A stretch of 64,000 nucleotides of DNA from Clostridia bacterium (lineage in GTDB: Bacteria; Bacillota; Clostridia; UBA1381; UBA9506): the NCBI GenBank assembly GCA_017415145.1, contig JAFQJE010000007.1:62001-126000 (forward strand), in the 5' to 3' direction. Below the pieces are notes generated by a model. That model had not been told where the DNA came from, searched no databases, and saw only the letters and a program-made list of their open reading frames with translations. Numbering within the stretch: position 1 is the first letter of the stretch; the number at the start of each line of letters is the position of its first letter. The translations under genes were made by a program, and so were the position numbers. Of this stretch, positions 2,963-13,371 are shown in pieces.

Positions 2963-3228
2963 AAAAAACGCCCCAAAGAGATATTCTTTGAGACGAGATA
3001 TTTCCCGCGGTACCACTCAAATTGTGTAAATACACCACTTCAGACGCTAACACGCCCTATGCACTAACGCAGCCTTCTCGGAAAGGGTCTACTTGCAAAG
3101 ATGCTTTCTTCCTTTCAGCTCAGGAGCTACAACTCTGTCGTCTGCCTTATTGACTCGCACCAACCGCCAATTCTCTCAAAGGTTTCGTGATAGAGCACTC
3201 TCCGTCAACGCTTTTTTGTATGAAATTA
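2963..3228 (-). promoter_or_regulatory. T-box riboswitch leader of the acyl-CoA synthetase gene
   Basis: Read on the minus strand, the region has the T-box order. Stem I carries an AGAG/AGTG-type loop-E segment and a distal GGCGGTTGGTGC loop. The conserved T-box core GTGGTACCGCGGG lies at about 3017-3004, followed by a terminator (11-bp stem, six T) at 2995-2963. The specifier, by alignment to the 'codon, purine, CTCC' pattern, falls at 3130-3128 and reads GTA (Val), but the loop is short and the register is uncertain (UGU one base over). The leader begins just after a strong promoter and ends about 50 nt before the HTH-cupin-ligase start. Uncharged tRNA binding should permit read-through. 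Confidence 0.85.
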
Positions 3229-4641: not shown

Positions 4642-4732
4642 ATGAAAAACATTTTGGCACAGCGATTAAAAGATTACAGACCTTTATAACGTTTCTTTAG
4701 ATTATTTAGCAGGCAGAACAGATAAAAAATAA
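4642..4732 (+). pseudogene. Remnant of an XRE-family HTH regulator (internal deletion)
   Basis: The ATG at 4642 begins MKNILAQRLKDYR, a typical first helix of small XRE regulators, and stops after 15 codons. In another frame, 4685-4732 encodes YNVSLDYLAGRTDKK and a stop, the standard end of the same domain. Everything between, including the recognition helices, is missing and the frame is shifted. This is best read as a regulator gene that lost its middle. The flanks look ordinary and a terminator follows directly. Confidence 0.75.
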
Positions 4733-4755
4733 AATCTCCCCAAAGGGGAGATTTT
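4731..4755. terminator. Bidirectional terminator
   Basis: An 11-bp perfect stem (AAAATCTCCCC and its complement, AAA loop) with A/T runs on both sides. It ends the asparagine-locus operon from the right and any read-through from the nuclease gene on the left. Confidence 0.88.
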
Positions 4756-5908
4756 ATTTTTTCAATTTTTCTTCCATTGCTTTTTTTAATTCTTCCACAT
4801 CACCTATGAGTTTCCCCTGAGCGTAGTCAGGCTTTCCGCCGCCTTTTCCTGAAAATTTTGCATTCAATTCTTTTACTATTTCTCTTACGTCTCGCTCTTT
4901 ACTTGCCACAACATACAAGTAGCCTTCCTCTGCTTCTGACAGTAAAATGCAAGTTTTTGCTCCTTGCTCCTGCAAGGAGTTCGCACAATGTCTTAATTCA
5001 TCGTATGTGAGGTTTTTAGTTATTGCATAAACGCTATCCCCTACATTTACAGGCTCAAGCTCTAAAAGTGCCAGACGTTTTGACATCTGTGCATTTTGAG
5101 TTTTCAGTGATAACAACTGTTCATTTTGCTTTACTACTGCGTCATTTACGGAAAATCTTGATGCAGAAAGTAGTCCCATAAGCTCTTTATTGGCTAAATT
5201 AAGAGAAGCGTAGTCTGAAAGTGCATTGATACCTGCAAGCATTTCAATTCTCGTGCCCTGCTTGTAGGAATACGCATTCACTATTTTGATTATGCCGATT
5301 TCTCCCGTACGGGCAACGTGCGGTGCACAACAGGCACAGGTGTCAATATCGCCTATTATGACAATTCTCGCATCATCGGAAAGCTCTATTTTACTGCGAA
5401 AATCAAGGTTTTCAAGTTCTTCCTTTGTAGGATATATTGCTTTAATTTCGAGATTTTTATAAATAGCCTGATTTGATAACAACTCAATACGTGCTATATC
5501 CTCTGCTGAAAGTGCCTTGTCAAGGTCGACTGTCATAAGTGTATCACTCATATGAAAGCCTACATTGGTACAATCAAAAAGTGTATGCGCTACACCCGAC
5601 ACTATATGCTCTCCAGAGTGACTCTGCATTCTGGAAAATCTCAGTTCCCAGTCAATAGCACACTCAACCTCTTTACCAACGGGAATTTCTTTATCTGTTG
5701 TATGAACTACAACACCGTTCTTTTCCTGAACATCAGTTACGGTGTTCCCGTCAATTGTGCCACAATCTGCACTTTGACCACCACCTTCGGGAAAAAACGC
5801 GGTTTTATCAAGGATAATTTCATATAAATTATCTTTCTTTCCACACGACACAACAGTCGCTGAAAATTCTTTGCAGTATGAATCATTTAAATATATCTTT
5901 TCTGTCAT
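4754..5908 (-). CDS. Alanyl-tRNA editing protein (AlaX-type with DHHA1 domain)
   Basis: A 384-residue stand-alone relative of the AlaRS C-terminal half. The N-terminal barrel (FFPEGGGQSAD) leads into the editing domain with the zinc motifs HSGEH and CxxxH-type CACCAPH. The C-terminus is a DHHA1 domain with the glycine motif SGKGGGKPDYAQG. Such proteins hydrolyse Ser-tRNA(Ala) or Gly-tRNA(Ala) in trans. The start at 5908 has an AGGTGA site that overlaps the stop of the asparaginase-family gene; an earlier in-frame start at 5932 would overlap that gene more. It is the last gene of the T-box-controlled operon, placing a mistranslation-correcting enzyme under the same signal as Asn-tRNA synthesis. 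Confidence 0.9.
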   Translation of the reverse strand: MTEKIYLNDSYCKEFSATVVSCGKKDNLYEIILDKTAFFPEGGGQSADCGTIDGNTVTDVQEKNGVVVHTTDKEIPVGKEVECAIDWELRFSRMQSHSGEHIVSGVAHTLFDCTNVGFHMSDTLMTVDLDKALSAEDIARIELLSNQAIYKNLEIKAIYPTKEELENLDFRSKIELSDDARIVIIGDIDTCACCAPHVARTGEIGIIKIVNAYSYKQGTRIEMLAGINALSDYASLNLANKELMGLLSASRFSVNDAVVKQNEQLLSLKTQNAQMSKRLALLELEPVNVGDSVYAITKNLTYDELRHCANSLQEQGAKTCILLSEAEEGYLYVVASKERDVREIVKELNAKFSGKGGGKPDYAQGKLIGDVEELKKAMEEKLKK

Positions 5909-5912
5909 TTTA

Positions 5913-6968
5913 TCACCTGTCAAAATATTCAAAATTGCATTCTGTGTGAATATATTCTTTTAAGCTTTCTTTATCATCAAAATATGAGTACGCAACTAAA
6001 AGCTTTGCATACGCCGCTTCGTTTGTCATACCATATAAAAAACCGATTCTTTTGCCATTTTCTGTCCTAAATTTAGAGATATCACTGACTGTGTGATAAA
6101 TTTCACCATAGTCCTTGGACGGTGCAAAAAAGCAGTCAACGCCCAACGCTGAGCACTTATCTATCAAATAAAGAATTGAGCGCTCTGAGGTCTTTTCTTC
6201 AACACAGGCAGTACCTGAATGATATGTGCCGTGCAAAATGGCAGAAAATCTTTTGTAATCGTATGCCCCATAGTTTATACCCACATAAGGGGTTATCATC
6301 AGGACGGAGTCTTTTAAGGTAAGCTTGTCTTTATCTATCATCACTCTTACCTTCTCACGCGGGAACACGCGGGAAATCTCGTTTATTTTTTCGCTATTGA
6401 TATTTGTAATATCTATAGCGCCTACACTGTGTAAATCCTCTGTATAGTTTTTACATTGTTCAAGTCTTGAGGCAATATGCAAAAGCATTCTGCCGTCAGA
6501 TATATTTTTGTACGCCACATATACATTGGGGACAATACCCTGACATATACATTCAACCGCTGCACGAAAGTTCGCATTACCATTTGTTTTGGGCAGTTCA
6601 AGACGGGCCTGAGCTGAAACTAAAAAAACGGGAATATCAGTATCTGCTAAAATCTGTGAAAAAAGTGCAGCGGAATACGCTAACGTGTCTGTCCCGTGTG
6701 CAAATAACACACCATCATAGTTGTCATTTTTTATGTGTTTTTTGTAAGTGTCAAGCACCCTGTTCCACTTATAAACAGTCAGGTTCTCACTCAATATGCA
6801 AAGGTTTTCTGTCATATTAAATTCTACGCAATCGCAATAGCGAGAATCAGATTTCTTAAAATTTTCTACAAGCTGCACTCCTGCTTTTTCACTGACTGAT
6901 AAAATGCCTTCATCATTCACTTCTGTACAAATAGTGCCGCCTACCAAAACTAACAAAATTTTCTTCAT
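5913..6968 (-). CDS. Asparaginase-family amidohydrolase (cytoplasmic)
   Basis: A 351-residue protein without signal peptide. The first catalytic Thr is in VGGTI (T12) and the second Thr-Asp pair is in AHGTDTLAY, the two hallmark sites of the L-asparaginase/GatD superfamily. The segment after SDGR, where E. coli-type enzymes show a TK motif carrying the catalytic Lys, reads instead HIASRLEQCKN, so substrate preference is uncertain. The known family reaction is release of ammonia from Asn or Gln. It lies in the same operon as AspRS-GatC, GatA and GatB, separated from gatB by a hairpin. An Asn-destroying enzyme under an Asn T-box is paradoxical, so an ammonia-donor role is possible (inference). 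Confidence 0.82.
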   Translation of the reverse strand: MKKILLVLVGGTICTEVNDEGILSVSEKAGVQLVENFKKSDSRYCDCVEFNMTENLCILSENLTVYKWNRVLDTYKKHIKNDNYDGVLFAHGTDTLAYSAALFSQILADTDIPVFLVSAQARLELPKTNGNANFRAAVECICQGIVPNVYVAYKNISDGRMLLHIASRLEQCKNYTEDLHSVGAIDITNINSEKINEISRVFPREKVRVMIDKDKLTLKDSVLMITPYVGINYGAYDYKRFSAILHGTYHSGTACVEEKTSERSILYLIDKCSALGVDCFFAPSKDYGEIYHTVSDISKFRTENGKRIGFLYGMTNEAAYAKLLVAYSYFDDKESLKEYIHTECNFEYFDR

Positions 6969-6986
6969 ATCTTCACCTATAACACA

Positions 6987-7010
6987 GCGGGAGTAATAAC
7001 TTACTCCCGC
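6987..7010 (-). other. Intra-operonic hairpin between gatB and the asparaginase-family gene
   Basis: A 10-bp perfect inverted repeat (GCGGGAGTAA, 4-nt loop, complement). No clean T-run follows on the minus strand (TGTGTTAT), so it is more likely a processing or partial-attenuation element than a full terminator. Confidence 0.6.
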
Positions 7011-7019
7011 CGCATTTTG

Positions 7020-8444
7020 CTAAGAATTTTCCAACTTTTTATCCAATATTTCTTTTATGATTGCAGGATCGCCTGCACCTTTTAATTCTTTCATACAAGC
7101 ACCGAAGAGCGCCTGCTTTGCCTTTTCCTTACCAGCCTTAAAGTCTGCAACCGCCTGAGGATTTTCTGCTATCTTCTGTGCAATAATTGCCTCAATCGCA
7201 GATGTGTCAACCTTACGGTCAAGACCTTGTGCCTTACAAAATTCAACAGGGTCAACATCCTGCTCGATAACTGCGATAAGAACTTTCTTGCCTGCAACAC
7301 GGTTGATGTCGCCTGAAGCTACCATCTTGATAATTGCAGCAAGTTTTTCAGCTGTAATTGTAAGGTCTGCTAAAGTTTTTCCGTCTTTACGCAGTACACC
7401 TGCACAGTCTGTTAATATCCAGGTTGCAGCATCTTTTGCGTTACATCCTAAAGCCACAGTATCATCTAAGAGCTTGCTTATCTTGTTGTTTGAAATAAGC
7501 ATATCGATTTCTTTGTCAGAAATACCGGCTTGCTTATAGTCTTCAGCCTTTTCGTCCACTGCTTCGGGCATTTCAGATTTGATCTTTTCTAACCACTCAT
7601 CGTCGATTACAATAGGCATAAGGTTTGCATCGGGGAAATAACGGTAGTCCGCTTCTGTTTCCTTGTTACGCATTGCAAAGGTTTTGCCTGATGCATCATC
7701 AAATCTTCTTGTTTCCTGAACAAGCTCTTCTGTTTCAAATTCAATTGCGTCAATATGACGTTGTGCCTCATACTGAATTGCCTTCTCAATTGCTTCAAAA
7801 GAGCTCATATTCTTGATTTCGGTACGAACACCATACTCTGTGCTTCCCTCAGGACGAACAGAAATGTTTACGTCACAACGCATAGCACCTTCTTCACATT
7901 CAGAAATACCACCTGAACGGAACATTGACTTTAATTTGTTAAGGTATAATACAACCTCTTCTGCACTGTGAAAATCAGGCTGTGTAACAATCTCAATCAA
8001 TGGAACACTTGTACGGTTAAAGTCTACAAAGCTTGATTTTCCGCCGTGAACAAGTTTACCTGCATCTTCTTCCATGTGAATCTGCTTGATGCGGATATCA
8101 CGCTTGCCTTTTGAAGTATTTAATGTCACGCAACCGTCTGTGCAGATGGGGTGATTAAGCTGTGTAATCTGGTATGCACATGGAAGGTCGGGATAATAAT
8201 AATTCTTCTTGTCAAATGTTGTGTATCTGTTGATGTTACAGTTAAGCATAAGACCTGCTGTTACTGCCAATTCTACTACACGCTTGTTCATAACGGGAAG
8301 CATACCGGGCATACCGCTGCAGGCAGGGCATACACAGTCATTAGGCTCATTCGCTTCTGAATGTCCGCCACAGGAGCAGAAAATCTTTGACTTTGTTTCT
8401 AACTCAACGTGGGTTTCAAGACCGATAACTATTTCGTAGTTCAT
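7020..8444 (-). CDS. gatB: Asp-tRNA(Asn)/Glu-tRNA(Gln) amidotransferase subunit B
   Basis: A 474-residue GatB of normal length. It begins YEIVIGLETHVELETKSKIFC and contains PNDCVCPACSGMPG, both signature regions, plus VDFNRTSVPLIEIVT in the kinase/cradle domain. The C-terminal tail (from about 325) is the helical YqeY-like tRNA-binding domain. GatB phosphorylates the aspartyl or glutamyl group on mischarged tRNA and completes amidation using ammonia delivered through a tunnel. All conserved regions look intact, in contrast to the adjacent GatA. A GGAGGG ribosome site sits at the end of gatA, with 2 bp between the genes. Confidence 0.97.
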   Translation of the reverse strand: MNYEIVIGLETHVELETKSKIFCSCGGHSEANEPNDCVCPACSGMPGMLPVMNKRVVELAVTAGLMLNCNINRYTTFDKKNYYYPDLPCAYQITQLNHPICTDGCVTLNTSKGKRDIRIKQIHMEEDAGKLVHGGKSSFVDFNRTSVPLIEIVTQPDFHSAEEVVLYLNKLKSMFRSGGISECEEGAMRCDVNISVRPEGSTEYGVRTEIKNMSSFEAIEKAIQYEAQRHIDAIEFETEELVQETRRFDDASGKTFAMRNKETEADYRYFPDANLMPIVIDDEWLEKIKSEMPEAVDEKAEDYKQAGISDKEIDMLISNNKISKLLDDTVALGCNAKDAATWILTDCAGVLRKDGKTLADLTITAEKLAAIIKMVASGDINRVAGKKVLIAVIEQDVDPVEFCKAQGLDRKVDTSAIEAIIAQKIAENPQAVADFKAGKEKAKQALFGACMKELKGAGDPAIIKEILDKKLENS

Positions 8445-8446
8445 AA

Positions 8447-9625
8447 TTATTTGCCCTCCTTTTCAACGCTTGCAGCAAGGCTTAGAAGTGTACCTTCAGA
8501 AAACGCCTTACCCATAAGCTGAACACCGCAAGAAACAAGTGCGGGTGTACCAATAAGGTTTGCAACTGATGTGAATACGCTCTCAGAATACACTTTGTTG
8601 AATGCATCTTTTATGTCGTATGCTTTATATTCAGTTTTTGAGCAAGCAGGTAAAAGAACTGCATCATACTCATTCATCAGCTTTGCAAATTTTTCTGAAA
8701 CAATTCTGCGTATTCTCAAGGATTTATCGTAGCAGTCTTTATAACGATTCTTAGATAATACGTCAGAACCATAAAGAATAACTGCTTTTGTCAAGAAATT
8801 AAATCCCTCTGTTCTTGAGTTTACATATAATTCGTCGATGTTTTTGAACTCTTTGGCACGGTGACCAAATTTTACACCATCATAACGTGATACGTTATTA
8901 CATGTTTCAGCACACATCAAAATCTGCCACGCTGTGTTTGCGATATCAAAGAAGTCGGCTGAAATTTCTTCAACAATTACGCCTGAAGACTTTAATGAAT
9001 CCGCAAAAGCTAAAACCTTTTTCTTCGTTTCTTCGTCTGCCTTTTCTAAAAGTTCTTTTACGATACAAACTTTTTTACCTTTTACGTCTTCAATATCATA
9101 TGCCACTTTTTCTTTTAAGCTTGTGCCGTCTTTTTCATCGTGGCCTGCGATAACGTTCATAATCTCAGCAATACCCAAAGCATCTTTTGCATAAACACCA
9201 ACCTGCTCGCCTGATGCTGCACAGGAAATTACGCCATAACGTGAAACTGTGCCGTAGGTAGGCTTTAAAAAGTCAACACCTGATACTGCTGCTGCTCTTC
9301 TTGTTGTACCGTTCATATCAACGCCAAGCGCCACCTTAACTTCGCCTGCTGCTACCAATTCTGCTGCGGCACCTTTCAATGTCTCGCACTTTTCAGCGTA
9401 GTATGAAAACTCGCCCAAAAGGTCAAGACCAAACTCGCCAACGTGTGTCTTTCCTGAAATTGTGTAGCCGTTTTTTTCAAGCCTTTCTACTGCTTCTGCA
9501 CTAAAAAGTGGTTTAAAGCCTTCTAAGATACGTGAACCAGCTGTAGCCTCTGTATCTTTTACCAAAATTGTATCATCAACAGCAATGTTGCCGCCCTTAT
9601 TTAATTCTTTTATATAGTATTTCAT
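8447..9625 (-). CDS. gatA: Short GatA-like amidotransferase subunit lacking the amidase serines
   Basis: A 392-residue protein that aligns with GatA from the catalytic-Lys region (ILVKDTEATAGSRIL) through to the C-terminus (IGTPALVSCG), but it is about 90 residues short. The N-terminal helical part is absent, and the loop that normally carries FAMGSS and GGSSGGS is replaced by unrelated sequence. The nucleophile segment GSDTGGSIRQPA reads GVDMNGTTRRAA, so Ser becomes Thr and the cis-Ser is gone. The Lys survives, as do KPTYGTVSRYG and NVIAGHD. It may be a structural subunit without glutaminase activity, or have altered chemistry. The frame is intact and uninterrupted, so this is not a fresh pseudogene. 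ATG at 9625 is preferred (GAGGTG upstream). Confidence 0.88.
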   Translation of the reverse strand: MKYYIKELNKGGNIAVDDTILVKDTEATAGSRILEGFKPLFSAEAVERLEKNGYTISGKTHVGEFGLDLLGEFSYYAEKCETLKGAAAELVAAGEVKVALGVDMNGTTRRAAAVSGVDFLKPTYGTVSRYGVISCAASGEQVGVYAKDALGIAEIMNVIAGHDEKDGTSLKEKVAYDIEDVKGKKVCIVKELLEKADEETKKKVLAFADSLKSSGVIVEEISADFFDIANTAWQILMCAETCNNVSRYDGVKFGHRAKEFKNIDELYVNSRTEGFNFLTKAVILYGSDVLSKNRYKDCYDKSLRIRRIVSEKFAKLMNEYDAVLLPACSKTEYKAYDIKDAFNKVYSESVFTSVANLIGTPALVSCGVQLMGKAFSEGTLLSLAASVEKEGK

Positions 9626-9635
9626 CAAACACACC

Positions 9636-11711
9636 TCACTTTACAAGTCTGGGAACAACCCAGCTGTCTTCACTGCGTTCAGGCGCACCCTCGAGAAGAG
9701 AATCTCTTGTAAATGGCTGCTTTCTTTCATCTTCACGCAGTACATTTGTCATAGGCATAACGTGTACCATTTCTTCTACATTTTCTGTATCTATATTCTT
9801 TAATGCAGCTTCATCATCTTTCATTGATGCAAAAATTCCCTGCATAACTGTTTCTTCTTCATCAGTTAACTCTAACTGGTTAAGCTGCTGCGCATTTGAA
9901 AATGTTGAACGCTTACCCTGAGCTTTGCTTGCTGTGGCTACGCCTGAGCCTGCATTTGCAAAAACAGCGCCGTTACCCAAAAGATGAACGTCTTCTAACT
10001 GCTGTTTTGTAACAAAGCTGGGAGCACCAAGCATTACATCCTGAGCGTTTCCGTTTAAGGGGAATGCAATAACGTCTAAGATTTTTTCTTCGTCTGTCAA
10101 TAGCATTACCATACGGTCAATACCCGGTGCCATACCGGCGTGGGGCGGAGCACCATACTGGAATGCTGTATACAAAGCATTAAAGCGTGCTTTTAATTCA
10201 TCTTCTGAATAGCCTGCAATCTCAAATGCTTTCTTCATTATATCAATATCGTGGTTACGAACCGCACCTGATGCCAACTCAATACCGTTACATACAAGGT
10301 CGTACTGGTAAGCAAGCACCTCTTCGGGGTCTTTTGTAAGGAGGGCATCCATTCCCCCCTGAGGCATTGAGAAGGGGTTGTGTGTAAAAATTGTTTCGCC
10401 TGTTTCTTCGTCATTTTCATACATCGGAAAATCAACTACAAAGCAGAACTCAAAAGCGTCGTCACGGATTAAATCGAGCTGTTCGGGTTTCGCAAGCCAG
10501 CTACGGATATGGCCAGCCTTTTTCTCTGTGTCGTTTTTCTTGTCGTCACAGATAAAGAACAGAGTTTCTCCCTCTTTAACGCCTGTGATTTTTATAATTT
10601 CTTCTTTCTTCGCATCTGTTAAGAACTTGGCAATAGGACCAGCGAATACACCGTCCTTTAATGTTATATAACCAAGACCGCCAAGGCCTACTTCAGCAGA
10701 GGTTGCAAACTTTAATGAATCTTCAAAGAATTTCTTTGATTTACCCTGACAGTCAGCAACAATACCACGAACAGGTTTTCCGCGGAATGCAGGGAACTCA
10801 ACATCAGAGAAAAATTCTGTCAAATCACAGATAATAAGCGGGTTACGAAGGTCAGGCTTATCTGAGCCGTACTTCATCATTGATTCTGCGTATGTGATAC
10901 GGCGGAAAGGCTTTTCTGTGATTTTTTTATTTGAAAATGTCTTGAATGTGTCGTAGATTACGTCTTCACAAACTTCCAAAACTTCGTCCTGTGTTGCAAA
11001 TGCCATTTCAAAATCTAACTGATAGAATTCACCGGGTGAACGGTCAGCTCTCGCATCTTCATCACGAAAGCACGGTGCCACCTGGAAGTATCTGTCAAAA
11101 CCTGACACCATGAGAAGCTGTTTGAACTGCTGAGGTGCCTGAGGAAGTGCATAGAACTTGCCCGGATGCTTACGGCTGGGAACCAAGAAGTCTCTTGCAC
11201 CTTCGGGTGATGATGCTGTAAGGATAGGAGTCTGCATATCAAGGAAGTTCTTTTCTTCCATTTTGTTACGAAGATGACGGATTATCTTTGAACGGATAAC
11301 CAGATTTTCGTGGTTTTTGGGATTACGTAAATCAAGGTAACGGTACTTTAAGCGAAGCTCATCCTTGCTTTGTCTTGATGCTCTTACTTCAAAGGGGAGC
11401 ATATTCTGGCTCTTGCCCAATACCTGTAAGGATTCTGCAACAAGCTCAACCTCACCTGTTGCAATTTTTTCATTTACTGTGTCGGGGTCACGCTTTTCGA
11501 CTTTACCGGAAACAGAAATAACAGTTTCGCGGTTTACGTTTGCTAAAAAGCTCTCATCATGAATAACAACCTGTGTAACACCGGTGTAGTCACGAAGGTC
11601 AATAAATATAACGCCACCGTGGTCACGCACAACGTCAACCCAGCCCGCAAGCTGAACGGTCTGACCGATATGTTTGTCACAGATGTCGTTACAGAATAGT
11701 GTTCTATACAT
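9636..11711 (-). CDS. aspS: Aspartyl-tRNA synthetase fused to GatC
   Basis: A 691-residue fusion. Residues 1 to about 590 are a complete bacterial-type AspRS: OB-fold anticodon domain (GWVDVVRDHGGVIFIDLRD), class II motif 2 (FRDEDARADRSPGEF), GAD insertion, and motif 3 (GAPPHAGMAPGIDRMVML). After a linker, residues about 612-691 match GatC, ending with NVLREDE, FTRDSLLEGAP and WVVPRLVK. The fusion physically joins Asp-tRNA formation to the amidotransferase subunit that bridges GatA and GatB, suggesting a permanent transamidosome. No separate gatC is seen nearby. The start at 11711 is 7 nt after AGGAGG; the upstream ATG at 11717 is too close to it. First gene after the Asn-specifier T-box. Confidence 0.95.
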   Translation of the reverse strand: MYRTLFCNDICDKHIGQTVQLAGWVDVVRDHGGVIFIDLRDYTGVTQVVIHDESFLANVNRETVISVSGKVEKRDPDTVNEKIATGEVELVAESLQVLGKSQNMLPFEVRASRQSKDELRLKYRYLDLRNPKNHENLVIRSKIIRHLRNKMEEKNFLDMQTPILTASSPEGARDFLVPSRKHPGKFYALPQAPQQFKQLLMVSGFDRYFQVAPCFRDEDARADRSPGEFYQLDFEMAFATQDEVLEVCEDVIYDTFKTFSNKKITEKPFRRITYAESMMKYGSDKPDLRNPLIICDLTEFFSDVEFPAFRGKPVRGIVADCQGKSKKFFEDSLKFATSAEVGLGGLGYITLKDGVFAGPIAKFLTDAKKEEIIKITGVKEGETLFFICDDKKNDTEKKAGHIRSWLAKPEQLDLIRDDAFEFCFVVDFPMYENDEETGETIFTHNPFSMPQGGMDALLTKDPEEVLAYQYDLVCNGIELASGAVRNHDIDIMKKAFEIAGYSEDELKARFNALYTAFQYGAPPHAGMAPGIDRMVMLLTDEEKILDVIAFPLNGNAQDVMLGAPSFVTKQQLEDVHLLGNGAVFANAGSGVATASKAQGKRSTFSNAQQLNQLELTDEEETVMQGIFASMKDDEAALKNIDTENVEEMVHVMPMTNVLREDERKQPFTRDSLLEGAPERSEDSWVVPRLVK

Positions 11712-11740
11712 AATCATACCTCCTGATTATTTTACAAAAT

Positions 11741-11961
11741 AAAAATCCCGGGAATACTCTTTAAGAATATTCCCGGGACGAGTAAACTAAAAATTACCCG
11801 CGGTGCCACCCGCTTTGATACAAAATGCATCCACTTTTTTATTAAGCTAGGTTCACTATGGAGTGTTCCCGCACTTACTACTCATCTTAATGCGCTCTCA
11901 GTCCATGACGCATACTCCCTGAAAGACTTTCCAAAAAAGCCGAGTCTCCATATTTAATATC
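11741..11961 (-). promoter_or_regulatory. T-box riboswitch, Asn specifier, upstream of aspS-gatC operon
   Basis: The minus-strand leader has GGGAGTATGCG (stem I 5' side with the AGTA loop-E element) and GGGAACACTCC on the 3' side, so the specifier triplet is AAC (Asn) at 11867-11865. The T-box core GGGTGGCACCGCGGG is at 11811-11797. The terminator has an 11-bp CCCGGG-rich stem at 11778-11746 followed by five T. Uncharged tRNA-Asn should stabilise the antiterminator and turn on aspS-gatC, gatA, gatB, the asparaginase-family gene and alaX. T-boxes are known ahead of clostridial tRNA-dependent Asn synthesis genes, which supports the reading. Confidence 0.93.
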
Positions 11962-11967
11962 ATGATA

Positions 11968-11996
11968 ATTATAACAAAAGGATATATCTTTGTCAA
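11968..11996 (-). promoter_or_regulatory. Sigma-A promoter of the Asn T-box operon
   Basis: Consensus TTGACA (11996-11991) and TATAAT (11973-11968) on the minus strand with a 17-bp spacer. Predicted transcription start near 11961. Confidence 0.92.
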
Positions 11997-12036: not shown

Positions 12037-13371
12037 TTACGGATTTAATCTGTTAGGTCCGCGGAAGATAAACATTGCATCCTTGATGTGTAAGCCTAAA
12101 AGAAGCATTGTCATTCTGTCCACACCGATACCAAAGCCGCCGTGAGGAGGGCAACCATAGCGGAAGAACTCAAGATAAAATTCTACATCCTTTGCTAAAC
12201 CCTTTTCTTCTGCTTGTTTCGCGAGTATATCGTATCTGTGTTCACGCTGAGCACCTGTCGTGATTTCAACACCACGCCAGATAAGGTCATAGCCCATAGG
12301 TGTACCGTGTTCGTCTCTCATGTGATAAAAGGCTCTTTTTTCAGCGTCAAAATCTGTTACGAATAAAAATTCGTGGTCATAGTGCTTTTTAACCCACTCA
12401 AAGCTTAACTTCTCTGCTTCTGTAGAAAGATCTCCCTTTTCAGAATCGGGAACAGTGTAACCAAATTCCTTTTCTAAACCATCATATAATTCTGCGAGTG
12501 TTACAACAGGGAAAGGAAGCTTCGGAACAACTACTGGGATACCGAACATTTCTTCGATTTCTTTGCCGTATTTGTCTGCTACCTTTTCCAATGCATAGGT
12601 CAAAAGCTCTGCTTCTAGTTGCATTACATCACGATAGTCTTCAATATAGCTGAACTCAAGGTCAAAACCTGTGAATTCTGTTGTATGTTTGCTGGTGAAG
12701 GATTTTTCTGCACGAAAAACTGGACCAACTTCAAAGATTTTTTCAAATCCGCTTGCCATAGCCATCTGCTTATAGAACTGAGGGCTCTGTGCTAAATATG
12801 CGTTCCTATCAAAATACTTAACCTCAAAAACATCGGAACCACTCTCGGATGCTGCACCGATTAATTTAGGAGAGTGAATTTCGATAAATTCCTTGCCCAA
12901 TAAAAATTCACGCATTGCAGCAACGAACGCTGTCTGCACCTTGAACATAAGCTGATTTTCGTCTGTTCGCAAATCTATCCAGCGGAAATCAATTCTCTGG
13001 TCGATCGAAGAACGCTCAACTGCCTGCTTTTTCTTTGTTGCAGGAATTTCTTTTCTTGTGATGGGAAGAGCATCTGCCACACTTTCTACAAAAAGCTCAT
13101 CGGGAAGAATCTCAATACCACCCATCTTAACGTATTCGTTTTCTATAACCTTACCAACTACTGTAATAACGGAGTCGCCTGTTAAGATATCTAACGCTGC
13201 CTCCATTTCAGGATGCTGTTCTTTTTCTATTGTTACCTGAATTTTTCCTGTAATGTCTTTTAGCACGATAAATGCCATCGCTCTTGAATTACGGAAATTT
13301 TCAACGAAGCCCTGTACTTTAACAACTTCGCCTATATTGTTTTTAATGTCCCTTACATATGTTCTGTTCAT
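12037..13371 (-). CDS. aspS2: Archaeal-type aspartyl-tRNA synthetase (AspRS2, probably non-discriminating)
   Basis: A 444-residue class II synthetase. It lacks the bacterial GAD insertion and matches the archaeal/eukaryotic AspRS branch: GAASESGSDVFEVKYFDRN, YLAQSPQFYKQM, FRAEKSFTSKHTTEF (motif 2), YDLIWRGVEITTGAQR, and GCPPHGGFGIGVDRMTMLL (motif 3). Bacteria with this second AspRS typically use it to charge tRNA-Asn with Asp as substrate for GatCAB. That fits the gatA/gatB genes immediately downstream. An AsnRS identity was considered and rejected because the motif 3 and C-terminal GPNRLNP pattern is AspRS-like. GGAGG precedes the ATG, and the gene has its own promoter, so it is not dependent on the T-box. 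Confidence 0.9.
   Translation of the reverse strand: MNRTYVRDIKNNIGEVVKVQGFVENFRNSRAMAFIVLKDITGKIQVTIEKEQHPEMEAALDILTGDSVITVVGKVIENEYVKMGGIEILPDELFVESVADALPITRKEIPATKKKQAVERSSIDQRIDFRWIDLRTDENQLMFKVQTAFVAAMREFLLGKEFIEIHSPKLIGAASESGSDVFEVKYFDRNAYLAQSPQFYKQMAMASGFEKIFEVGPVFRAEKSFTSKHTTEFTGFDLEFSYIEDYRDVMQLEAELLTYALEKVADKYGKEIEEMFGIPVVVPKLPFPVVTLAELYDGLEKEFGYTVPDSEKGDLSTEAEKLSFEWVKKHYDHEFLFVTDFDAEKRAFYHMRDEHGTPMGYDLIWRGVEITTGAQREHRYDILAKQAEEKGLAKDVEFYLEFFRYGCPPHGGFGIGVDRMTMLLLGLHIKDAMFIFRGPNRLNP

Follow-up and report, generated by a model that had tools for sequence, protein, structure and literature searches.

For most bacteria the amidotransferase GatCAB is indispensable, and it has been described as taking ammonia from glutamine via its GatA subunit. 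The operon reported here lies on the minus strand of a 64,000-nucleotide stretch of a Clostridia genome (hereafter the window, in which all coordinates are given). It resembles GatCAB and the bacterial Asn transamidosome (2df4, 3h0l, 3kfu, and 4wj3) in possessing GatB, GatC together with AspRS, and a subunit with the GatA fold, but unlike in those systems its GatA lacks both the glutaminase triad and the N-terminus, and AspRS and GatC form one single chain. Fusion of AspRS and GatC is, as a kind, already known from the bifunctional AspRS/GatC family NF009460 (NCBIfam; PRK12820), with which the window protein shares the same two parts in one polypeptide, although it scores 451, well short of the 1379 cutoff. 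In the archaeal GatDE, an asparaginase-type subunit (GatD) feeds a GatB-like one (GatE). The operon is preceded by a T-box leader RNA; in class I T-boxes (RF00230), a kink-turn and an AGUA/GAA loop-E motif are usual but not universal. A two-codon T-box, for Asn and Glu, has been reported upstream of the Clostridium acetobutylicum transamidation operon (Saad et al. 2013, as described in PMC4052509).

The leader is a compact variant of the known T-box kind, and the larger finding is not the leader itself but a conserved Asn-tRNA amidotransferase whose glutaminase-dead GatA is often the only GatA of the genome. We consider it fairly probable that the locus combines a T-box for tRNA-Asn, a two-step pathway to Asn-tRNA, and a structural GatA, with ammonia coming from elsewhere.

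An operon with a degenerate GatA

The first gene encodes a fused bacterial-type AspRS-GatC of 693 aa (9636-11717, with a start more likely at 11711 according to the ribosome site), whose GatC domain spans residues 617-688 (9654-9869; PF02686, E-value 1.2e-11; TIGR00135 above its cutoff). It is followed by a degenerate gatA (8447-9634, 395 aa; hereafter GatA*), by gatB (7020-8444, 474 aa) with its active-site residues retained, and by genes for an asparaginase/GatD-like protein (5913-6968, 351 aa) and an AlaX-like alanyl-tRNA editing protein (4754-5932, 392 aa; PF07973 and PF02272 above their cutoffs). A hairpin usable as terminator on either strand (4724-4762) closes the operon. The initial annotation had described the content as Asn-tRNA synthesis, an asparaginase-family enzyme, and AlaX; the genes it listed are right, but the list was incomplete, as it missed that an AspRS-GatC fusion comes first and that gatA is devoid of catalytic residues. 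The asparaginase-like gene is an occasional member, with its catalytic Lys substituted, and AlaX a common one that adjoins gatB in many loci. The AlaX-like protein has a SAD-type editing domain (HxxxH as HSGEH, CxxxH as CCAPH) and reaches 151.7 bits against the AlaXM model NF040865, under the cutoff of 300; it seems to be a co-transcribed editing enzyme and not part of the mechanism.

Compared with Aquifex aeolicus GatA, the window GatA* has Asp in place of the catalytic Lys, lacks the loop carrying the cis-Ser, and has Thr in place of the nucleophile; it scores 275.6 bits against the GatA equivalog model TIGR00132, whose cutoff is 481. These losses recur in 59 degenerate GatA sequences, a few of them duplicates, comprising 55 GatA* and 4 members of a second clade. 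The catalytic Lys is Asp or Glu in 59/59 and the cis-Ser loop (GGSSGGS) is deleted throughout, while the nucleophile column holds Ala, Ser, or Thr in GatA* and Lys or Arg in the second clade. A Ser does occupy that column in 24 of the 55 GatA*, yet without the Lys and the cis-Ser. By comparison, the triad is intact in 60/60 canonical GatAs. A smaller alignment gave the same contrast, with Asp or Glu in 53/53 GatA* and 56/56 canonical sequences intact. GatA* is monophyletic in the GatA tree (no outgroup root), as is the accompanying GatB (GatB*) in the GatB tree. Since dN/dS between the window and a related locus (L066) is 0.10 for GatA*, which indicates purifying selection (0.04 for GatB and 0.07 for AspRS-GatC), GatA* is not a decaying gene. 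Its AlphaFold model (pLDDT 83.7) has GatA 2df4 as the closest fold (TM 0.84), so that GatA* is predicted to retain the amidase fold. In the part of the literature that we covered, we found no report of an inactive GatA or an ammonia-dependent GatCAB.

In GatB*, residue 89 (Lys88 in S. aureus numbering), an invariant Lys in canonical GatB that we take to line the ammonia tunnel, is Cys in 98% of sequences. Of the active protein, 73 of the 92 positions invariant in canonical GatB are kept, including E10, H12, E125/E126, E151, and N193, and so are the ATP and metal residues (residue roles according to PMC4027206).

A second AspRS, of archaeal type, is encoded upstream of the operon promoter (12037-13371, minus strand). 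Unlike its sister genera, the genus of the window has no usual 595-aa AspRS and possesses GlnRS, which within the family is present only in this genus. As a possible mark of AspRS discrimination we looked at the His/Leu residue in RDHGG/RNLGG; Leu occurs also in genomes with a single AspRS, which has to act on tRNA-Asn. A GC-rich hairpin without U-run (GCGGGAGUAA-GUU-AUUACUCCCGC, 6987-7010, minus strand) lies between gatB and the asparaginase-like gene and may reduce expression of the two genes that follow it; the next clear terminator is the one 3' of alaX.

Ammonia supply and distribution

No AsnRS (TIGR00457) was detected above cutoff in any of the 20 genomes of the window's family, nor any AsnB above cutoff in its own genome; therefore, tRNA-Asn must be charged with Asp and then amidated. 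A candidate AsnRS fragment on one contig of that genome (C35) turned out to be the end of LysRS. In the two-step pathway that we propose, AspRS, fused to GatC, would first load Asp onto tRNA-Asn, and GatB would then activate and amidate the resulting Asp-tRNA-Asn. GatA*, with its fold kept and its glutaminase residues gone, is probably a structural subunit, and the ammonia would have a source other than GatA, free ammonium of the gut being the likeliest. We infer both the formation of a complex and the use of ammonia as donor. Many GatA* genomes derive from the ruminant gut, an environment rich in ammonium, and free ammonium would be the simplest source. Yeast GatFAB uses NH4Cl in vitro, and a truncated form without a scaffolding piece does so better (PMC4027206).

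An alternative source would be the asparaginase/GatD-like protein, which might replace the GatA glutaminase by splitting Asn (or Gln) and handing the ammonia to GatB, much as in archaeal GatDE; cleavage of imported Asn would also yield Asp, and thus both substrates in the absence of AsnRS. Its gene belongs to the same operon, where it lies 52 nt behind gatB and shares 20 nt with alaX, it is under purifying selection (dN/dS 0.055, window versus L066), and it occurs near GatA* operons in several families (L066, L067, L075, L083, L093, and L243). Profile comparison matches the protein nearly full length to asparaginases and archaeal GatD (GatD 1zq1, E-value 5e-21), and the Thr of the GGTI motif and the Thr-Asp of the HGTD motif of type I asparaginases are present. 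However, the gene is absent beside most GatA* operons and, in a distant alignment, most members have Arg and two have Asn or His in place of the catalytic Lys; the first alignments had placed Gln or Glu at this position, where the profile alignment puts Arg. An apparent fusion of GatB with the asparaginase-like protein (L067) is an assembly gap, namely a run of N. In contrast with archaeal GatDE, there is no GatE here and the substrate would be Asp-tRNA-Asn. We regard this source of ammonia as unlikely.

Still less probable, in our opinion, is that GatA* remains a glutaminase working through other residues. Its predicted amidase fold and the 148 columns conserved at 95% or more, which include the replacing Asp and a D-x-N-G-x-x-R-R segment, could suggest so, but two clades have lost the Lys, deleted the cis-Ser loop, and lost or varied the nucleophile, and we know of no amidase of the GatA class that works without the Lys, cis-Ser, and Ser residues. 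Ammonia borrowed from a canonical GatA is not the general answer either, because in most genomes with a degenerate GatA none was found. Eight other GatA* genomes of the window's family do encode a canonical gatCAB as well. No canonical GatA was found in the three metagenome-assembled genomes (MAGs) of the window's genus, its own genome included (54-85% complete), nor any GatA above cutoff in 14/14 GatA* genomes outside the family, of which six reach a completeness of 90% or more. In the second clade, no further GatA was found in G192 and G260 (99% complete) or in G400, and G355 has one above cutoff. Overall, although most genomes surveyed are incomplete MAGs, the degenerate GatA is the only one found in most of those that carry it, eight of which are at least 90% complete.

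GatA* occurs in 13 of 391 genomes spread over the class, belonging to eight families, and the leader is detected in 11 of the 13 with a covariance model of its Stem I (R1). It is also present in two further families of the window's own order (G078 and G092). In the second clade (L235-L238, families f10 and f52) the genes follow the same order and AspRS is unfused, and in its GatA the Lys is replaced by Asp or Glu, the loop is deleted, and the Ser is replaced by Lys or Arg. A related T-box and gene order accompany an intact GatA in family f29 (L239-L242), and two loci (L243 and L244) combine GatA* with AspRS and GatC unfused. A simple order of events would start from a T-box operon with an active GatA, followed by loss of the glutaminase and then by fusion of aspS and gatC. 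In f29, related T-boxes also precede either a bacterial-type or an archaeal-type AspRS, together with an intact gatCAB (L230-L234), so that the leader has been conserved while the type of AspRS following it changed. L122:3400-8645 holds a distant AspRS-GatC fusion (41% identity), with an intact GatA and a T-box that has a UGGU bulge and a loop reading GAACAUC.

We see the chances as evenly balanced that in a widespread lineage of Clostridia, from the gut and elsewhere, all Asn-tRNA is made by a naturally glutaminase-free, ammonia-dependent GatCAB with a conserved pseudoenzyme GatA, covalently joined AspRS and GatC, and a compact tRNA-Asn T-box that controls its level. If true, tRNA amidation would be separable from glutamine hydrolysis in nature, in analogy to the ammonia- and glutamine-dependent asparagine synthetases, and these bacteria would offer a natural system for studying the roles of GatA beyond hydrolysis and the ammonia route to GatB.

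The tRNA and the signal probably read by the leader

Upstream of the operon we identified a sigma-70 promoter, TTGACA-17-TATAAT with an extended -10 TG (11968-11996; 12/12 matches), and a leader of about 220 nt running from a likely start at about 11961 to the end of the terminator U-run at 11741, all on the minus strand. Its Stem I (11854-11958; 108.9 bits with R1) carries the AAC specifier (11865-11867) within a small internal loop, GAACA, of the RNAalifold structure. It also carries CAGGGA, the counterpart of the AG bulge (11916-11921; alignment columns 38-43), and a distal loop (11896-11907), placed by alignment and consensus structure. Then come a Stem III hairpin (11817-11831, from sequence reading and the Rfam alignment), the antiterminator (11774-11813, from the Rfam alignment) with the T-box bulge UGGC (11805-11808), which is complementary to the GCCA end of tRNA-Asn (G73), and a strong intrinsic terminator at the 3' end (11741-11779) made of 16 pairs (11779-11745) and a U-run. 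Antiterminator and terminator have a CCCG in common and are mutually exclusive. The leader has a fold z-score of -4.05, and 0/200 shuffles fold equally well. With all these elements in place between 11961 and 11741, the T-box recognized by the initial annotation is confirmed, and its AAC (Asn) specifier ahead of an Asn-tRNA synthesis operon is supported, as AAC is present in 33/33 leaders and the UGGC bulge in 32/33.

We infer that the leader functions as a T-box, binding tRNA and acting by antitermination: the AAC would pair with the anticodon GUU of tRNA-Asn, and the uncharged GCCA end with UGGC, which would stabilize the antiterminator and allow transcription of the operon. The tRNA-Asn of the same genome decodes AAC and has G73 and a U1-A72 pair. 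Recognition of a second tRNA had also been suggested, and the C. acetobutylicum two-codon T-box, as far as the citing description goes, would be a precedent for a leader that senses both Asn and Glu tRNAs. A GAA triplet does overlap the AAC (11866-11868), the two being contained in GGGAAC in 30/33 leaders. However, the remaining 3/33 read GGCAAC, the GAA having become GCA in L069, L071, and L105, and likewise in three deeper relatives (L226, L227, and L229), whereas all six keep AAC; furthermore, both tRNA-Glu genes of the genome have A73, a mismatch to UGGC. Two conserved codons with two bulge-compatible tRNAs were thus not found in this leader, and sensing of both tRNAs is very improbable. 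Since GAA is lost in six relatives and both tRNA-Glu have A73, we read the leader, from its sequence, as an Asn-only switch, and consider sensing of tRNA-Glu unlikely.

As for the inducer, Asn starvation, as formerly assumed, is probably the wrong signal, because with no AsnRS above cutoff in the 20 genomes of the family free Asn would be unable to charge tRNA-Asn. The switch should instead report uncharged tRNA-Asn, that is, a shortage of Asp or of AspRS, while Asp-tRNA-Asn, which would accumulate under ammonia shortage, is charged and should not induce.

A compact Stem I

The same leader precedes the same genes in nearly all loci of relatives with sufficient upstream sequence, which are MAGs from the ruminant gut and other Clostridia; only L073 departs from this, with unrelated sequence above the T-box core that may stem from a misjoined assembly. 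The consensus structure of 32 homologues from RNAalifold is a single long Stem I made of four helices. Over its 24 pairs, 97.0% of the cells are paired, versus 90.6% in shuffles, with 13 pairs and 71 cells changed on both sides versus 6.5 and 20.5, values that 0/500 shuffles reach in either case. In slid controls, with partners moved by 1-3 columns, pairing falls to 22-52%. Within the base stem itself, two pairs alternate between G-C and A-U (in 8 and 14 sequences). Above it, the internal loop that contains the codon opposes AC to GAACA (2 and 5 nt).

R1 also gives weak matches to canonical T-boxes within the same order, most of them upstream of thrS; these score 80-128 bits in Rfam and have an AG bulge of similar sequence in the same place and a distal loop in common with the leader. 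The idea of a Stem I devoid of the elbow-binding module was dropped in view of these matches; given the elements in common, the upper, elbow-binding part of Stem I looks ordinary, while its lower part is compact. Neither a kink-turn nor the AGUA/GAA loop-E motif was found around the specifier, judging by sequence. The strand facing the codon in the specifier loop, on the 5' side, is AC instead of AGUA. A kink-turn would have no space, since just 6-10 nt separate the end of the -10 box from the base-stem AGAC in most relatives, against 20 nt in the window. The leader is thus like class I T-boxes (RF00230) in its Stem I specifier, AG bulge, distal loop, Stem III, UGGN bulge, and antiterminator/terminator switch. 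It is unlike them, for example those before thrS in the same order, in having no room for a kink-turn, no AGUA, and a specifier loop of 2 + 5 nt, and in scoring about half the RF00230 cutoff. This compact specifier region may be of value for structural work.

When checked with a covariance model, as had been proposed, the leader matches the Rfam T-box family with 48.8 bits (E-value 6e-10), below the gathering score of 93, and two relatives (L184 and L185) score 53.5 and 45.4 bits. The low score results from the compact variant of Stem I, and Rfam at its cutoff consequently omits the leader, the gathering score being a detection cutoff and not a functional feature. That 48.8 bits against a cutoff of 93 betrays a decayed, non-functional T-box is hardly credible in view of the strong covariation in Stem I, the perfect promoter, the constancy of specifier and UGGC, and the occurrence of the leader in several families. 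T-box surveys that rely on the Rfam cutoff can therefore overlook an entire branch.

The window contains a second T-box (2986-3217, minus strand, 97 bits), located before a gene encoding an HTH-cupin-acyl-CoA synthetase protein (2931-619, MbcS-like). Its loop, UUGUA, and its UGGU bulge would suit Val (GUA) or Leu (UUG), both with A73 tRNAs, and it could tie the uptake of branched-chain acids to the need for branched-chain amino acids.
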